NCBI RefSeq assembly: GCF_900066015.1
Contig: NZ_LN890655.1
Coordinates: 1,652,726-1,716,725 of the forward strand
Source: Candidatus Promineifilum breve
GTDB lineage: Bacteria; Chloroflexota; Anaerolineae; Promineifilales; Promineifilaceae
Direction: 5' to 3'
DNA length: 64,000 nucleotides
The notes beneath the pieces were generated by a model, which saw nothing but the letters and a program-made list of their open reading frames with translations, made no database searches and was not told the DNA's origin. This document shows, piece after piece, positions 5,411-47,130 of the stretch (positions within the stretch are counted from its first letter, which is position 1; every line of letters begins with the position of its first letter). The position numbers were made by a program, and so were the translations under genes.

Positions 5411-6550
5411 ATGACCACCGCCGACCCGCTCGTCCGCGAGCGCCGACCCCCCACCCCGGCCGACGTGATTCGTATCGCCGCGCTGGCTGACCCCATCGCC
5501 CGCAACCGGCAAATCACCCAGGCTTACCACGACCTGGCCGTGGCCCTGGCCCGCCGGCTGCCCGGCGGGGCCAACTGGTGCGCCGTCGCCACCTGGGCCT
5601 CGCGCCAGGCCGGCCAATCCATTCGCGGCGAAGATTTACGGCAGGCGCTGGCCCGGCTAGTGCGCGAATCGCGGGAGGCCCTGCTGGCGGCCGAGACCCT
5701 GGAGGCCGAGAGCGCGCTCATAAACCAGGACGCGACCGAGAGCCTGGCCGGGGCCGTGGCCGCCGTGCGCGACGCCCTCAGCCCGGCGGCGGCCGTTGAC
5801 CGCGTGGCCGAAGCCGTAGCCCACGGCAACCAAAAGGTATTCGCCGAGATCGGCCTGGCCTTTGCCCACTTCCTGGCCCTGTTCGCTGACGGCCCGCCCA
5901 CCCCAGCCGCGCTGGACGCCTTCCTCGATGGTCTGCGCCTCGGCGAACCGCCCGACGGTCAGCGCCGACTGCGCGCCGCCTTCGGCCACTACTACGCCGC
6001 GTTGAGCGAACCGGACGAAAAGGCCCGCGCCGAACTGATGCTGCTGGCGAATCTGGAGATCGGCTTCCACGAGCAGACGCGGCTGCAACCGCAGATCCGC
6101 GACGCGATGGACGCGCCGATCTATGAGCCACAGGCGCTGCGCCACCGCCTGCTGGCTGAGCTATTCCCCGACCCCTCGGCCCAACTACGGCTGGCCGCGG
6201 CGCGCCTGACCGGGCGGGCCGCGCTGCTGTTGGCCGCCCGCGACCGGCTGGCCGACGAAGCGCAGCGCCTCGGCCGCCTGGCAATCACCGATGCGCTGAT
6301 GACGCTGGAGCTGTCCGGTGGTCGCGTGTTGCGCCTGGGCGAACCGCTAACCGGCGATTATCCCCCACCTTTGCGCGAACTGACCCTGCCCGATTTACGC
6401 GCCTTGCTACAGCCGCTTGACAAGGAACCCACGCCCGTCGCCGACTGGAGCGACCTATCGGCTCGTATGGGCTACATCGCCGCCCTCTTCCGCGCCCACC
6501 ACACCGACGCGACCCTATTCGATGCGCCTTTCAGAGATGAAGAAGGATAA
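5411..6550 (+). CDS. Conserved hypothetical protein, 379 residues
   Basis: A soluble, largely helical protein rich in Ala, Leu and Arg. It opens with a 'VIRIAALADPIARNRQITQAYH' region (split, residues 19-40) and 'GANWCAVATWASRQAGQSIRG' (residues 52-72). The latter is the most recognisable block and looks conserved among related proteins, but I cannot name the family. No signal peptide, transmembrane segment, metal motif or nucleotide motif is visible. It stands alone on the plus strand between two minus-strand groups. The start lacks a Shine-Dalgarno and may be leaderless. A long word-repeat hairpin begins at its stop codon. Confidence 0.75.
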   Translation: MTTADPLVRERRPPTPADVIRIAALADPIARNRQITQAYHDLAVALARRLPGGANWCAVATWASRQAGQSIRGEDLRQALARLVRESREALLAAETLEAESALINQDATESLAGAVAAVRDALSPAAAVDRVAEAVAHGNQKVFAEIGLAFAHFLALFADGPPTPAALDAFLDGLRLGEPPDGQRRLRAAFGHYYAALSEPDEKARAELMLLANLEIGFHEQTRLQPQIRDAMDAPIYEPQALRHRLLAELFPDPSAQLRLAAARLTGRAALLLAARDRLADEAQRLGRLAITDALMTLELSGGRVLRLGEPLTGDYPPPLRELTLPDLRALLQPLDKEPTPVADWSDLSARMGYIAALFRAHHTDATLFDAPFRDEEG

Positions 6551-6623
6551 TCCGCAGATTTCGCAGATTACGCAGATTTCTTTCCCCACTTTTGAATCTG
6601 CGAAATCTGCGAAATCTGCGGAT
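6550..6623. repeat. Word-repeat hairpin (ATCTGCG family) and likely terminator
   Basis: Left arm 6550-6580 and right arm 6594-6623 are inverted and each contains three tandem copies of a 9-10 bp word (CGCAGATTT or its complement AAATCTGCG). The loop is about 13 nt. It starts at the stop codon of the upstream gene and ends 24 bp before the convergent acetyltransferase, so it separates convergent transcripts. Confidence 0.85.
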
Positions 6624-6647
6624 CAAACCTCTTAACTCAAGAGTTCC

Positions 6648-7091
6648 CTAAATGTCTTTGCGGAAAAAGCGCGCGACTTCTTCATAGCCCAGGGCCGCGT
6701 GCGCCGCCGGGCTGAGCGGGTAGGCCGGCTCCGTGTCGGAAGCCATCTCCCGGCAGCCGGCGGCCCGCGCCCACGCCTCGGCCCGCGCCACCAGCGCCCG
6801 CCCCATCCCCCGACCGCGCCAATCGGGATCGACGTACCACGCCTCCAGAAAGCCGATCCGGTCGGTCGTGCAACCGGGGGCCGTTTCGTGGATGGCAACT
6901 TCCACCAGCCCACACAGGCCGCCCTCCGGCCGGACGCCGACAAAGGCAGCCATCAGCGTGGGCAGGGGATAGCCGGCCAGGAAGCGGTCGATCACCTCCG
7001 CTTCCTCTTCAGCCGTGGAGTCGGGCCACAGTTCCAGCCGCAGACGTAGCCATTCGGCCTGGTCGGCCGGCTCAACAGGTCGAATAATCAT
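6648..7091 (-). CDS. GNAT acetyltransferase, aminoglycoside 6'-N-acetyltransferase-like
   Basis: A 147-residue acetyl-CoA-dependent N-acetyltransferase. The pattern fits the AAC(6')-I group: '[21 protein letters not shown]' at the start (split, residues 2-22), 'GFLEAWYVDPDWRGRGMGRAL' (split) with the acetyl-CoA loop R-G-R-G-M-G around residue 97, and 'GCREMASDTE' followed by 'AHAALGYEEV'. The EMASDTE block is characteristic of chromosomal aac(6') enzymes. Whether it acts on aminoglycosides here is not shown; environmental members often have other substrates. It overlaps the DUF1697 gene by 4 bp (ATGA), so it is the last gene of a coupled set. Confidence 0.8.
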   Translation of the reverse strand: MIIRPVEPADQAEWLRLRLELWPDSTAEEEAEVIDRFLAGYPLPTLMAAFVGVRPEGGLCGLVEVAIHETAPGCTTDRIGFLEAWYVDPDWRGRGMGRALVARAEAWARAAGCREMASDTEPAYPLSPAAHAALGYEEVARFFRKDI

Positions 7092-7633
7092 TTCTTTCCG
7101 GCGGCTAATATCGCCAGCTTGCGCACGGTCGTAATGCTGCGCACCGTCGCCGGAACGCCCAGCGCCCGCTCCAGCTTGGCCCCGCCGAACTCCGTCTCCG
7201 ATTGCTGCACGCGTCGCAGCCAGTAGACCTCGCGGCCGTGGACAGCGATGTCGTCGCTCGCCCGCCGGTAAGCCAGCAGCCGTTCGCGCCCCGCCTCGTC
7301 GGGCGGCGCTTTGAGGAAAGCCACCATCAGCCCGAAGGCGCTGGCCATCTCGTCCAGGGCGAAAGGCGTATGGGCAGCCACGGCGGCCAATTCGGCCGCC
7401 GAGCGCACGAACGTCGCCACCTCGTAGCCCAGCGACGCCCGCAAGTGGGTCTCAATACGTGCTTCCAATGCCGCCGGGTCGCCGTTCTCTTCGTCGAACA
7501 GCACGTTGCCGCTGGCGATGAAGGTCGAAATCCCAGTCAGGCCGAGTTCCACGAACAACTGGCGCAAGACATCCTTCTTGACGAAGCGTCCGGTGATGTT
7601 GATGGCCCGCAGCAGGGCAACCGCGTGCGTCAT
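7088..7633 (-). CDS. DUF1697 family protein
   Basis: A 181-residue cytoplasmic protein of the DUF1697 family. Signature: '[13 protein letters not shown]' near the N-terminus, '[12 protein letters not shown]' near residue 38, and '[20 protein letters not shown]' (residues 136-155), ending '[14 protein letters not shown]'. The usual family ending TxRNWNTVxKL is changed to [10 protein letters not shown]. Biochemical function is unknown. Its ATG overlaps the stop of the decayed P-type ATPase frame upstream (ATGA) and its own end overlaps the acetyltransferase start. Confidence 0.88.
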
Positions 7634-7854
7634 GGCTCGAGCCCCACCCGCCGCAGGAATTGGGCATTAATGGCGACGATCACCGTCCTGAGCGACATCA
7701 ACAACGCGCCGACCCGGCTGCTCGGCTCCTTGCTCATCGGCCGCGATTCCCCGGTAATTATCGATTCGTCCACGTTGGTACCGCCCTCGATCACTTGTCC
7801 GTCGGCCGGTATGCTCGCCCCCGGCCTGATGAGCAACAAGTCGCCCAAGCTGTT
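7630..7854 (-). pseudogene. Remnant of a metal-transporting P-type ATPase
   Basis: The frame directly after the cupredoxin stop codon, in phase with it, encodes a heavy-metal P-type ATPase actuator-domain segment: [17 protein letters not shown], then '[15 protein letters not shown]' with the TGES motif. It jumps within a few residues to '[18 protein letters not shown]', which is the last membrane helix and C-terminus of such pumps. Everything between, including the DKTGT phosphorylation site, nucleotide domain and most helices, is missing. An intact pump has about 700-800 residues; this has about 72. It cannot function as a transporter. It ends overlapping the DUF1697 start. A nearby cupredoxin suggests a former copper locus. 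Confidence 0.85.
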
Positions 7855-8295
7855 CTAATTCACCACCAACACCCCTTTCATCCCCGCTTCCATATGACCG
7901 GAAACCGTGCAAAAGTAAGGGTATTGGCCCGGCGCGGCCGGCGTAAATTCGATCGTACTGCGGCCGCCCGCGGCGGCGGCCACATGCACGGCCGGCTCTT
8001 CATCCACCTGACTCATATCGTGTTCTTCCGGCTCCTCCACGTGTTCGGTGGTTATCTCACCGTCTAACGGAATTTCCACAATACTGAAGTCATGTTCTAG
8101 CACACCCTGATTATCCAGCGTGAGGTTGACCGGCTGTCCGACCGCGGTCTCAATGTGCTCGATGTCGTAGGCGATATCGGTGGCGACGATCGTAACCACC
8201 TTAGGCTGGGGCTTGCTTTCGGCCGAGCCGCCCGACGAACAAGCTGCTAACGTCACTAAAACCAGGCCAATAAGAAGCAATACTATATTTTTCAT
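7855..8295 (-). CDS. Cupredoxin-like lipoprotein
   Basis: A 146-residue exported blue-copper-type protein. I choose the ATG at 8295: it begins MKNIVLLLIGLVLVTLAAC, a lipoprotein signal with lipobox LAAC, whereas the longer frame to 8337 would add an unrelated leader. The mature part has a type 1 copper set: His in 'LEHDFSIV', then 'PYFCTVSGHMEAGM' with Cys, His and Met at the usual spacing. A Glu/His-rich loop (residues about 84-100, 'TTEHVEEPEEHDMSQ') could add metal ligands. Likely anchored on the outer face of the membrane. The P-type ATPase remnant follows it in frame. Confidence 0.88.
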   Translation of the reverse strand: MKNIVLLLIGLVLVTLAACSSGGSAESKPQPKVVTIVATDIAYDIEHIETAVGQPVNLTLDNQGVLEHDFSIVEIPLDGEITTEHVEEPEEHDMSQVDEEPAVHVAAAAGGRSTIEFTPAAPGQYPYFCTVSGHMEAGMKGVLVVN

Positions 8296-18296: not shown

Positions 18297-18297
18297 G

Positions 18298-18353
18298 ATT
18301 AGTGGACAGTGGACAGTGGGCAGTCAACTGTTCACTGTCCACTGACCACTAAT
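18298..18353. repeat. Word-repeat hairpin (AGTGGACAGTGG family)
   Basis: Arms 18298-18318 and 18333-18353 pair over 21 bp with one mismatch. The left arm repeats GTGGACA. It starts just after the TetR stop and its right arm includes the stop codon of the convergent GNAT gene. The same words form the inner stem of the nested hairpin at 45849-45891. Confidence 0.88.
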
Positions 18354-18843
18354 CGTTGGTTTCCCTTAATTCCAGGACGTATTCGTCAATGACCTGCTTG
18401 CGGGCGACGGCGTAGCCCCGCTCCTGGCCGGTGATGAGGAAGCCGCAATTTTGCAGCACGCGCAGCGAAGCGGCGTTGTCGGCCGCGGCGCGGGCGAAGA
18501 GGGGGCGCGTCGTCTGCACCTCGAGGAAGGCGTCCAGCGCCGCCGTGGCGATGCCCCGGCCCCAGAACTCGCGGCCGAGCCAGTAGCTGACCTCCGGGCC
18601 GATGTCGCCCACGTAGCTGAGCACGCTGCCGGCCACCTGTCCATCAACGACGATGGTGCGGAAGACAACGTTTGTCTCGGCCAGGATGTAGGCCCAATGG
18701 GCGTCGAACGCCGCCCGGTCGTCCGGGTTTTGCATGGTGAAGGCGGCCATGTGGACGCCCGCCGGGTCGCGCTGCTGCTCAAAGAAGATCGGCAGATCGG
18801 CCGGTTCCACGTCGCGCAGGGCCAGGTTGGGGATGGGTGTCAA
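18349..18843 (-). CDS. GNAT acetyltransferase, RimJ/RimL-like
   Basis: A 164-residue acetyltransferase. I use the TTG at 18843, which overlaps the GrpB-type stop (TTGA) and has GGGAGG 9 nt upstream; the frame is open to 18873. Motifs: 'LALRDVEPADLPIFFEQQRD' at the start, 'SYWLGREFWGRGIATAALDAF' (split) with the acetyl-CoA loop near residue 95, and 'NAASLRVLQNCGFLITGQE'. The 'YWLGREFWGRGIAT' form is typical of RimJ/RimL and related enzymes that modify protein N-termini or small molecules. Translationally coupled to the GrpB-type gene. Confidence 0.88.
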   Translation of the reverse strand: MTPIPNLALRDVEPADLPIFFEQQRDPAGVHMAAFTMQNPDDRAAFDAHWAYILAETNVVFRTIVVDGQVAGSVLSYVGDIGPEVSYWLGREFWGRGIATAALDAFLEVQTTRPLFARAAADNAASLRVLQNCGFLITGQERGYAVARKQVIDEYVLELRETND

Positions 18844-31830: not shown

Positions 31831-31874
31831 CAGACGGGGATTGTAGCGCGGAATCGCGCAGCCGTCGCCATATA

Positions 31875-34938: not shown

Positions 34939-35017
34939 AGAATCCACAGATGACACAGATGACACAGATGACACAGATTTATCTTAATCTGTGTCACCTG
35001 TGCAATCTGTGGATTCT
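34939..35017. repeat. Word-repeat hairpin (TGACACAGA family)
   Basis: The left arm holds AGAATCCACAGA followed by three perfect copies of the 9-mer TGACACAGA (34951-34977). The right arm holds the complementary words, ending TCTGTGGATTCT. It lies directly after the hypothetical gene and before the convergent giant gene. A T-run follows on the plus side (35019-35025). Confidence 0.88.
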
Positions 35018-44549: not shown

Positions 44550-45785
44550 TCAGACAATGCGCGGCTCGGGGATGGGGATGATGAACCGCCCGCCCGCCTC
44601 GCGATAGGCCGACTGCTGGCGCATGATCTCCTCGGCGAAGTTCCAGGCCAGGATGAGCACGTAGTCGGGCTGGTCTTCCAGCAGCTTCTCCACCGGGTAG
44701 ATGGGCAGATGGTTGCCGCCCATGTAGCGGCCGTGCTTGTACTTGTTCAGATCGACCACGTAATCCACCAGCGTCCCGTCGATCTGGCAATAGGCCAGCA
44801 TCGTCGTGGCCTTGGCCGCCGCGCCATAGGCGGCGATGCGGCAGCCCTGGGCCTTCAGGTCGCGCAGGATCGCCAGCAGGTTCGTCTTGACGGCGGCCAC
44901 GCGGTCGGCGAAGTCGCGGTAGTAGTCGATGCTATCGACCTGACGCTCGCGCTCCGTCGCCAGCAGGTCGCGCACGACCGGGCTGACGTTCTCGCGCGGC
45001 TCCACGAACAGGCGCAATGAGCCGCCGTGGATCTTGGTGCGCTTCACATCGTTGAGGTACAGGCCGTGCTGCCGGAACAGCTTGTCGAGGGCGGTAATCG
45101 AGAAGTAGCACAGGTGCTGGTGGTAGATGGTATCGAACTCGACGTGATCGACCAGATCGACGACGTAGGGGCACTCGATGACGGCCAGCCCTTCGGGCTT
45201 GAGCACGGTCTTGATGCCGGACACAAAGCCGTTGAGATCGGGCACGTGGGCCAGCACGTTGTTCGCCAGGAAGACGTCGGCCGCCTTGCCCTCAGCCACC
45301 AGGCGGCGGGCCAGGTCGTGAGTGAAGAAGGTGATCATCGTGGGGATACCCGCTTCCTGGGCGGCCGTGGCCGGGGCCACCGACGGGTCGATGCCCAGCA
45401 CGGGGATGCCCCGCTCGGCGAAGTTCTTGAGCAGGTAGCCGTCGTTGCTGGCGGCTTCCATGACCAGGCTGCCGGGGCCGAGCGGCCGGGTGTCCATGAT
45501 GTACTCGGCGCTCTCGCGGAAGTGCTTCAGCAGCGAGGGGGACACGGACGAGAAGTAGGGATACTCGGCGTAGAACAGGATCTCCGGGTTCACCGTCTCG
45601 CGTATCTGGGCCAGCGACGAATCGGGGCAGAAGGCGAGGGTCAGCGGGGCTATGAGGGCCGGCTCATCGAGCTGGTCGGCGCGCAGCAGCCGGTCGGCCA
45701 GCGGCGTCTCGCCAAAGGCGATGATCGTTTCCAGGTTGGGCGAGCCGGTAATCCGGTCGCCGGTTTCGTTCTTGTAGATTGACAT
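44550..45785 (-). CDS. SAM-dependent C-methyltransferase (NovU/TylCIII-like)
   Basis: About 411 residues from ATG 45785. Three-part architecture of nucleotide-sugar C-methyltransferases: N-terminal domain (1-75), SAM domain with '[20 protein letters not shown]' near 104 and '[19 protein letters not shown]' near 165, the catalytic 'YHQHLCYFS' near 216, and the C-terminal '[20 protein letters not shown]' domain near 308. In relatives the N-terminal domain binds zinc through two C-x2-C pairs. Here 'RITGSPNLE' has none and 'FCPDSSL' keeps one Cys, so the zinc site is lost. Likely adds a branch methyl to a CDP-keto sugar. Confidence 0.87.
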
Positions 45786-45810
45786 GGTTTGTCTCATAGG
45801 GGGAAGAATA

Positions 45811-45922
45811 AGAATCCACGGATTACACAGATTTCGCAGATTTAAGAAAGTGGTCAGTGGTCAGTGGTCAGTGAACTGTCCACTGACCACTATCTGTGAA
45901 ATCTGTGTAATCTGTGGTTTCT
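45811..45922. repeat. Nested double word-repeat hairpin
   Basis: The outer stem (45811-45840 with 45893-45922) is made of GGATTACACAGATTTCGCAGA-type words. The inner stem (45849-45865 with 45875-45891) is made of AGTGGTC words, three and a half copies on the left. The inner words match the hairpin at 18298, the outer ones those at 6550 and 34939. Located between the SDR and methyltransferase genes of one operon. Confidence 0.9.
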
Positions 45923-45930
45923 CTTTCTTC

Positions 45931-46971
45931 TTATACAGGGACGGCCGTGCGCCAGCGCAGGCGGTCATCGAGGCGGCCGTCGGCCATGAGCATCTTGATG
46001 TGGTCGATGCGCCGGTAGCGCGGCCCCTCGAAATCGTCGAGTTGCAGGCCGACCTTCTGGTACGCCTCGTATAGCTGTTGCGCGCCGCGGCGGGCCGTCC
46101 ACTGGGGCTTGTATTCGGGCAATACGCGGGCGATCTTGCTGCTGTCGACGCGATAGTTGCGCTTGTCGGGGCTGGCCCCCTCGGCGAATTCGACCCGGCT
46201 GTTGGGCACGACTTCGGCCACGATCTCGGCCAGCTCGCGGATGCGATAGTTTTCCTCGGGGCGGCCGACGTTGAACGCCTCGTTGTGGATCAACTCGCGC
46301 GGGGCGTGGAGCGCGGCCACGAAGGCCAGGGCCATATCCTCGATGTGGACGACCGGCCGCCAGGGCGTGCCGTCGCTCTTCAGATAGACCAGCCCGGTGG
46401 TATAGGCCCAGGCGGTCAGGTTGTTGATGACCAGATCGAAGCGCAGCCGCGGCGACACGCCGTAGGCCGTGGCGCTACGCAGGAAGGTCGGGCTGAAGCG
46501 GTCGTCGGCCAGCTTAGCCACGTCCTGCTCCACCATCACCTTCGATTTGCCGTAGGGCGTCACCGGGTTGAAGGCCGATTCCTCGGTCAGGTAATCATCG
46601 ACGCCCGCGCCGTAGTTGCTGCACGACGAGGAGAAGACGTAACGCTCGACGCCCAACTCTTTGGCGATCTCGGCCAGCCGCACCGAGGCCTGGTGGTTGA
46701 TCTCGTAGGTCAACCCCGGGTTCAGATCGCCCAATGGATCGTTGGACAGGCCGGCCAGATGCAGGATGGCGTCGAAGCCGTCAACGTCGGCGTGAGTAAC
46801 GTCGCGCACGTCCTTGTTGATGGCCGGGATGGCGGGCGCGTCCTCCTCGCCGAAGGTGGCCGCCTGATAGAGATTGGAATCGAGGCCGACGACGTCGTGG
46901 CCCGCTTGTAGAAGCATGGGCACGAGCACCGTGCCCACGTAGCCGTTATGACCAGTCACTAGTACGCGCAT
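45931..46971 (-). CDS. NAD-dependent epimerase/dehydratase (extended SDR)
   Basis: A 346-residue nucleotide-sugar SDR. NAD motif 'VLVTGHNGYVGTVLVPML', 'AILHLAGLSNDPLGDLNP' near 65, catalytic Ser in 'YVFSSSCSNYGAGVDD' near 110 and the Y-x3-K in 'PYGKSKVMVEQD' near 142. The 'SSSCSNYG' and 'RLRFDLVINNLTAW' patterns are those of a subgroup often found with rfbF and C-methyltransferases in CDP-deoxysugar clusters. Whether it acts as dehydratase, epimerase or 4-reductase is open. The upstream gap to rfbF holds three tandem hairpins. Confidence 0.88.
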   Translation of the reverse strand: MRVLVTGHNGYVGTVLVPMLLQAGHDVVGLDSNLYQAATFGEEDAPAIPAINKDVRDVTHADVDGFDAILHLAGLSNDPLGDLNPGLTYEINHQASVRLAEIAKELGVERYVFSSSCSNYGAGVDDYLTEESAFNPVTPYGKSKVMVEQDVAKLADDRFSPTFLRSATAYGVSPRLRFDLVINNLTAWAYTTGLVYLKSDGTPWRPVVHIEDMALAFVAALHAPRELIHNEAFNVGRPEENYRIRELAEIVAEVVPNSRVEFAEGASPDKRNYRVDSSKIARVLPEYKPQWTARRGAQQLYEAYQKVGLQLDDFEGPRYRRIDHIKMLMADGRLDDRLRWRTAVPV

Positions 46972-46994
46972 TGTTGTTCTATTCCTTGTTTGTA

Positions 46995-47106
46995 GGGCGG
47001 GTTGGCAACCCGCCCCTTGCTACATCGATCACATCATCTGGGCGGGTTGGCAACCCGCCCCTTGCTACATCGATCACATCATCTGGGCGGGTTACCAACC
47101 CGCCCT
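46995..47106. repeat. 45-bp tandem repeat of GC-rich hairpins
   Basis: Two full 45-bp units and a partial third, starting at 46995, 47040 and 47085. Each begins with the hairpin GGGCGGGTTGGCAACCCGCCC and has a 23-bp spacer CTTGCTACATCGATCACATCATC. The third hairpin has ACC for GGC in the loop. The outer ends TGTAGGGCGGG and CCCGCCCTACA are also complementary. Between rfbF and the SDR gene. Confidence 0.92.
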
Positions 47107-47130
47107 ACAAAACGGTTCCGGGAGCCGCCG

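Follow-up and report, generated by a model that had tools for sequence, protein, structure and literature searches.

The window analysed here is a stretch of 64,000 nucleotides from Candidatus Promineifilum breve, whose genome is called G000 in the following. In this window, the gap between two sugar-biosynthesis genes is occupied almost entirely by one nested inverted repeat, located at 45803-45930. The features of the locus are listed below in order of position; the gene calls were obtained with a codon model made for the analysis.

44550..45797, - strand: downstream member of the gene pair, a C-methyltransferase (Methyltransf_13/14)
45798..45814, + strand: left flank, purine-rich, pairing partly with the right flank
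45815..45841, + strand: 5' arm of the outer stem, consisting of three 9-nt words, CCACGGATT-ACACAGATT-TCGCAGAT
45842..45848, + strand: linker TTAAGAA from the outer to the inner 5' arm, on the 5' side only
45849..45872, + strand: inner stem, 5' side, tandem heptads AGTGGTC
45875..45891, + strand: inner stem, 3' arm ACTGTCCACTGACCACT, 16 of 17 nt paired with 45856-45872
45892..45918, + strand: outer stem, 3' arm ATCTGTGAA-ATCTGTGTA-ATCTGTGGT, 24 of 27 nt paired with the 5' arm
45919..45930, + strand: right flank, pyrimidine-rich
45931..46971, - strand: upstream member of the gene pair, of the NAD-dependent sugar epimerase/dehydratase family

The outer stem is built from the 9-nt word ACACAGATT (complement AATCTGTGT), and its loop contains the inner stem of AGTGGTC heptads. 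This arrangement had been described in an earlier note on the sequence and is borne out by the inverted repeat and by its folding. The RNA fold of 45795-45935 reaches -84.7 kcal/mol (z -13.5) and the DNA fold of the nested hairpin has a z of -13.3; in both cases 0 of 200 shuffles were as good. The interval given in that note, 45811-45922, marks the right place and is slightly short, and the outer words that it named, GGATTACACAGATT, are exact in the 5' arm only, the 3' arm reading AGATTACACAGATT. Neither the outer nor the inner hairpin contains a gene. An S23 intervening sequence proper lies in 23S rRNA and is excised by RNase III; the nested hairpin is not located in 23S rRNA but between two protein genes, and no match to Rfam at the gathering score was found anywhere in the window. 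In an intrinsic terminator the stem would be followed by a T run; the flanks here are rich in pyrimidines but interrupted by C, and the hairpins of congeners in the same gap, as judged by eye, are mostly without a T run.

Two word families and the contents of their loops

The words of both stems are repeated far beyond this gap. The string GGATTACACAGATT (up to 2 mismatches) has 4 matches in the window vs 0.17 expected. With each tandem unit counted singly, the AGTGGTC pair AGTGGTCAGTGGTC (up to 1 mismatch) has 349 matches in the genome and its reversed pattern 0, and the ATCTGTG pair ATCTGTGNAATCTGTG (up to 2 mismatches) has 575 and its reversed pattern 2. A bias of the words towards the + strand was set aside, since the apparent excess came only from the matches listed and not from the totals, which are 178/171 for the AGTGGTC pair and 295/280 for the ATCTGTG pair. 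Separate hairpins of each family lie elsewhere in the window, as the earlier note had said: an outer-type hairpin at 34939-35017 and an inner-type hairpin at 18297-18354. A CGCAGATT variant of the outer type is located at 6550-6623.

In 464 kb of the genome we counted 79 hairpins with arms of at least 16 nt; in five stretches compared with a block-shuffled control, 11 were observed and 0 in the control. The arm period was 7 in 22 hairpins, 8-10 in 23, another value in 5 and none in 29, a rough classing in which a few ordinary palindromes fall into the period classes and some word hairpins into the class without period. Except for 6 of the 79, the hairpins are located in gaps between genes. Of the convergent gaps 18 of 48 have a hairpin, as do 41 of 218 tandem and 7 of 52 divergent ones; when only gaps of 80-150 bp are considered, the numbers are 12/17, 24/65 and 1/15 (convergent vs divergent, p 0.0003). 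A hairpin with TTTGGCTACGGATTCAAACGGA words in four tandem copies was observed at L218 8167-8505.

The two word families are independent of each other. In 625 kb not chosen for words, the window included, 12 of the 14 outer-type hairpins are without an inner array and 21 of the 23 inner-type heptad arrays lie outside outer-type loops; the repeat at 45803-45930 is one of the two nested cases in this sample. Being independent, the families do not form a single unit that always occurs together, the finding that the earlier note had named as contrary to its reading. Heptad arrays of about 13-16 units may also be one-sided, with no second heptad arm, as at G000:C1:1802445-1802549 (L015) and at L270 1512-1602; at L015 the outer-type arm, too, is present on one side only.

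Independent as they are, the families meet in loops more often than loop length predicts. The mapping of loop insertions that the earlier note had proposed gave, among the matches listed, 7 of 44 AGTGGTC clusters inside outer-type loops vs 0.13-0.22 expected from loop length. The 44 clusters, which were listed irrespective of nesting, are the 47 among the matches listed minus L268, L270 and L273, which had been fetched for resembling the nested query; L242 (one outer word per arm) and L253 (130-nt loop) were counted as nested, and L015 and L258 (outer arm on one side only) were not. In a list of 42 outer-type copies that includes stretches picked for nesting, the loops measure either 8-26 nt (20 copies) or 44-130 nt (22 copies), with nothing between. 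The short loops read like TAAGAACGTTCTTA. In many nested copies the inner hairpin is flanked by AAGA and TCTT stretches like those of the short loops, and AAGA/TCTT linkers resembling TTAAGAA also border the loops of other outer-type copies. The arm words are CACAG/CACAG in 33 copies, CGCAG/CGCAG in 8 and mixed in 1; the loop is at most 26 nt in all 8 CGCAG copies and long in 22 of 34 CACAG copies.

Outer-type loops also hold other hairpins. Two further loops in the 625-kb sample contain CGCAGATT hairpins, one within a complete outer stem and the other within a stem without 3' arm; the CACAGATT loop at G000:C1 ~1,636,870 holds a CGCAGATT hairpin that is complete and has flanks of its own. No target-site duplication was found in the 42 copies: the mean shared word was 2.67 vs 2.52 in the null (sd 0.11), where the copy ends were set by pairing and are hence approximate.

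The orthologous gap in congeners

The epimerase-methyltransferase gene pair is kept in seven genomes of the same genus. The hairpin finder detected a hairpin in the orthologous gap of G001, G003, G005, G006 and G007, and folds of the gap in G002 and G004 gave shorter stems of about 11 bp with weak z of -1.6 and -2.1; in the out-group G008 no hairpin was found at the gap (z -0.5). The gaps of G005 and G006 have CACAGATT stems with unrelated loop DNA, and the hairpins of the remaining congeners are unrelated in sequence to the nested hairpin. An orthologous gap with the outer hairpin only, which the earlier note had suggested looking for, was not found among the 7 congeners. G000, G005 and G006 do not group together in a tree built from three neighbouring genes, where one deep node has a support of 0.48.

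A wider comparison covered 77 ortholog gap pairs with gaps >30 bp, the pairs of one gap not being independent. The ortholog has a hairpin in 18 of 44 pairs if G000 has one, vs 3 of 33 if not (p 0.002). By orientation, the numbers were 8/8 for convergent gaps (four G000 gaps), 10/33 vs 3/28 for tandem gaps and 0/3 vs 0/5 for divergent gaps. At the second nested site, in the convergent gap at G000:C1:1759921, an ATCGC-word hairpin is present in G003 and another palindrome in G006. Word hairpins also stand at 31831, 46972, 115824 and 161930, where congeners have none. From these comparisons we concluded that some gaps keep a hairpin while its sequence changes and that other hairpins are lineage-specific. 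The gap at 46972 contains, at window positions 46989-47111, a REP-like triple palindrome of TTTGTAGGGCGGGTTGGCAACCCGCCC units, which among the genomes compared is present in G000 only; in the six compared congeners the gap measures 13-57 bp and is hairpin-free.

Genes enclosed by word arms

The long loop of one outer-type copy, L151, encodes a GxxExxY protein (NCBIfam TIGR04256, E 3e-42; PF13366), and this family was therefore tested for enclosing arms. The ORFs on either side of the L151 element (5873-7998, Salinisphaerales MAG) resemble two halves of MetH; as metH is split in some bacteria, no disruption of the gene is claimed. With 160-bp flanks and a score of at least 12, an inverted repeat was found around 40 of 48 GxxExxY loci (28 + 20 from two collections after two duplicates were dropped), compared with 4 of 192 random segments taken from those loci and, among small genes of the genus, 2 of 68. 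With 220-bp flanks, the result was 42/48 vs 5/192. Most of these genomes had been chosen for carrying the ATCTGTG phrase, and an independent draw from the Chloroflexota was therefore added, with genomes taken regardless of words. In this draw 22 of 28 loci were enclosed (28 of 30, the two G000 copies being omitted) vs 2 of 112 in the control, with CGCAGATT words at L502. Several loci of one genome are not independent in these counts, and 6 of 48 and 6 of 28 loci, respectively, are without such arms. The family is present in 23 of 26 genomes searched, i.e. 22 of 25 distinct ones because G340 and G007 have identical coordinates and counts and were taken as one genome, and in 3 of 14 well-known control genomes.

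The words of the GxxExxY arms are mostly CACAGATT, CACGGAT, CGCGGAG, CACAAAG, CGCAAAG, CACGAAC and CGCGAAG plus two further bases, and their period is 9 (16 arms), 10 (6), 8 (4) or unclear (14), and never 7. The CACAGATT words surround GxxExxY genes at L413 (Anaerolineae), L423 (congener G007), L426 (Salinisphaerales), L438 (Asticcacaulis biprosthecium) and L443 (Terriglobia). In A. biprosthecium C19, CACAGATT stems occur both around GxxExxY (L438/L161) and with no such gene (L159). The L423 stem reads GATT-TAAAGAGTC-ATG, and the nested hairpin is similar with GATT-TAAGAA. Both GxxExxY genes of G000 are enclosed, by arms of the CACGGAT and CGCGGAT type and not by CACAGATT. A D and an ExK are conserved in 49 GxxExxY proteins, which is consistent with a PD-(D/E)XK nuclease. 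The AlphaFold model, made from two sequences, has a mean pLDDT of 53, and no relative with a solved structure was found by sequence.

The S23 four-helix-bundle family (PF05635) was picked for the corresponding test. With 220-bp flanks, inverted repeats enclose 26 of 30 S23 loci vs 3 of 120 in the control, leaving 4 of 30 loci without such arms; two more G000 copies were examined separately. The period is 7 in 20 of the 23 arms of at least 16 nt, and 8, 8 and 9 in the others. All four S23 genes of G000 are enclosed, by the words GCAGGGG, GACCACA, GGGTGGC and TGACGAA, and the closest of these arms reads TGTGGTC, not AGTGGTC. In the congener G002 an S23 gene stands between CAGTGGTCAGTGTCC words, near the inner word (L453). 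The G000 sample also has gene-less hairpins of the word types found around its S23 and GxxExxY genes. Such arms are not exclusive to these two families, as a gene enclosed by inverted arms at L218 5063 (G000:C1 ~1,225,060) presumably encodes a GalE-like protein, and abundant words can bracket ordinary genes by chance. The arms of the latter gene, 114 nt in length, mirror two word families, with ATCGC words outside and AGTGG heptads inside.

The words are spread over many phyla. The 27-mer that makes up the outer 3' arm was found without mismatch in at least 119 stretches, the records of which include Asticcacaulis, Brocadiaceae, Nitrospira, FCPU426, Planctomycetota, Prevotella, Treponema, Terriglobia, Haloferula, Salinisphaerales, Sumerlaeota, Chloroflexi and others. 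The loops in these stretches may be as short as a few nt or as long as hundreds of nt, and some contain a further palindrome. All 20 genomes picked from these records have word-pair copies, 5-350 each, vs 0 for the reversed control; in the phylum of the window, three exact outer words in a row are present in 5 of 301 genomes, one of which is G000. In the viral collection the outer phrase was found in 6 stretches and the inner phrase in 31. A search of plasmids, with the low-complexity filter on, gave no match to the whole hairpin, and two scans of viral contigs for GxxExxY relatives confirmed none. Carriage of the hairpins by phages or plasmids was rejected within the scope of these searches.

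Origin of the nest and comparison with known systems

Since word arms enclose most of the S23 and GxxExxY genes examined, we consider it fairly probable that the site consists of two gene-less hairpins, one of the S23 type standing at the tip of one of the GxxExxY type, with a probable role in the mRNA. The outer family would be the terminal inverted repeats, made of tandem 8-10-nt words, of an element whose gene-bearing members enclose GxxExxY (PF13366/TIGR04256, PD-(D/E)XK nuclease-like), and the inner family those, made of mostly 7-nt words, of an element whose gene-bearing members enclose S23 (PF05635); the gene-less copies would be miniature forms of these two small element kinds. The stem apex may serve as the entry place for cargo, whether a gene or another hairpin. 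The inner hairpin occupies the outer apex, the position taken by the GxxExxY gene in what would be the gene-bearing copies, and most likely entered the outer loop much as S23 intervening sequences entered helices of 23S rRNA. The nested hairpin probably acts on the mRNA as an intercistronic stem-loop that is exchangeable. This is the weakest step, suggested by the recurrence of hairpins at the site, by the same-strand gene pair and by the protective structures known from other operons. The wider reading, which we hold only tentatively, is that two very widespread parallel classes of minimal hairpin-ended selfish elements (7-nt/S23 and 8-10-nt/GxxExxY) enter the apices of existing hairpins, including each other's, and so form onion-like nests, and that their far more numerous gene-less copies are the intergenic word hairpins of many phyla, used by hosts as exchangeable 3'-end stem-loops. 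Neither reading is held more firmly because two congeners have only weak hairpins and arms may enclose other genes too.

The earlier note had read the nest as the insertion of one element into the loop of another and had proposed that the elements may be mobile. Insertion into the loop is favoured by the independence of the families, by the 7 of 44 nested clusters among the matches listed where about 0.2 are expected, by the CGCAGATT hairpin or, in G005 and G006, the unrelated DNA found in other loops, by the related stems that carry a gene apically, and by the replacement of loops published for S23 intervening sequences (PMC4990558). As to mobility, there is neither a target-site duplication nor an ortholog with an empty outer hairpin, and we infer the movement of the gene-less copies, like the insertion event and the RNA role, from the features named above.

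Plain repeat dynamics offer a simpler origin, in which slippage expands the words, fold-back template switching makes the palindromes and the genes are passengers; a two-word array that folds back at its tip would give a nest in one step with no mobile element. Several features agree with this: the arms covary (33 CACAG/CACAG, 8 CGCAG/CGCAG, 1 mixed), partnerless one-sided arrays exist (L015, L270), the linkers are nearly complementary, and the GalE-like gene lies between mirrored two-word arms. We nevertheless consider such an origin unlikely, since slippage does not put arms round two specific gene families in many lineages, nor give them distinct periods, nor yield an identical 27-mer in distant phyla, and since complete CGCAGATT copies with their own flanks lie inside CACAGATT loops. 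A composite made once and then copied and spread as one unit would account for the similar inner junction AAGAGAGTG in L007, L259, L266, L267 and L270. It appears improbable, as junctions and inner content differ in other nested copies, the outer stem at the gap in G005 and G006 encloses different loop DNA, and both families mostly occur alone.

If the hairpins were only functional RNA stem-loops, acting as terminators or stabilisers, drift and selection for pairing could have made the nest, and their distribution over gaps (18/48 convergent, 41/218 tandem, 7/52 divergent) and over ortholog gaps (8/8 convergent; 18/44 vs 3/33 overall, in pairs that are not independent) is in agreement with such a function. 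But many word hairpins stand at places that are hairpin-free in congeners, and drift does not produce dispersed families or an association with genes, so that this origin is very improbable. The least credible proposal is that these are REP/RAYT-type elements mobilised by a Y1 transposase: the genome has three Y1_Tnp genes, and in L234 the Y1 gene has an ACGGAT-word hairpin at a distance of about 0.7 kb, but the palindromes beside the Y1 genes in L232 and L234 belong to other families and none was found at L233. A link to REP/RAYT was thus unsupported at the three loci. The palindromes flanking the Y1 transposase genes in L232 and L234, AAACCGGCTGAAGCCGGTTT, CGTGGGATGAATCCCACG and GTAGGTGGAACTTCCAGTTCC, probably form RAYT/REP pairs of their own.

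Among known repeats, REP/REPIN sequences with their RAYT are dispersed intergenic palindromes, a likeness to the hairpins described here, which differ in that their words are absent beside Y1 genes except for that one distant hairpin. Gene-less MITEs and solo terminal repeats have the terminal inverted repeats of gene-bearing copies. The hairpins resemble MITEs in such repeats being common to gene-less and gene-bearing copies, and differ in that no target duplication was found, no transposase was recognised and the ends are tandem words. Tandem 7-nt intergenic words are also known as STRR in cyanobacteria.

In Coxiella burnetii, the terminal repeats of the 23S rRNA intervening sequence form a 28-bp stem with the S23 ORF in its loop, and such sequences occupy helices in which they have taken the place of a small tetraloop (PMC4990558). 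The likeness to our elements comprises the bordering stem, the S23 ORF in the loop, the replacement of an existing hairpin's loop and the sporadic occurrence (PMC4990558), whereas the hairpins here lie outside rRNA, have tandem-word stems, are mostly gene-less and are nested. Location inside another hairpin's loop is seen at the nested site and in the 7 of 44 clusters among the matches listed, and not in 21 of 23 arrays. The TAACTGA heptamer repeats of Beggiatoaceae, Cyanobacteria and Bacteroidetes, for which no mechanism is evident (PMC4679880), are likewise tandem 7-nt intergenic words, patchy over phyla and of unexplained origin; they are mainly direct and discussed as regulatory, in contrast to the paired arms, nests, 9-nt class and gene association found here. 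The RHE of sponge mitochondria are dispersed hairpins with double forms from adjacent insertion (PMC2800124), but the insertion described there is tandem and not into a loop, and the elements are organellar and gene-less. Protective RNA structures at operon-internal positions (PMC5927463) are mostly intragenic and conserved, whereas in the present case the position is retained and the sequence varies. Families of stem-loop repeats have been published (PMC2267715). In the open-access literature of PubMed Central, no link of such words to S23 or GxxExxY genes and no occurrence of six word strings was found, and GxxExxY, PDDEXK_3 or PF13366 have single mentions in each of three papers, one of them PMC8934634. 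The inverted repeats of 8-10-nt words around GxxExxY genes and of mainly 7-nt words around S23 genes are new with respect to this literature.

Tying two word classes to two small genes makes the origin of the words testable, because the gene-bearing copies are candidate autonomous elements. If the proposed reading is true, the S23 intervening sequence would extend from rRNA to whole genomes, the GxxExxY family would gain a genetic context and nested hairpins would be explained by insertion at the apex. The gaps compared here would then be natural cases of one mRNA site that retains a hairpin while its sequence is exchanged.
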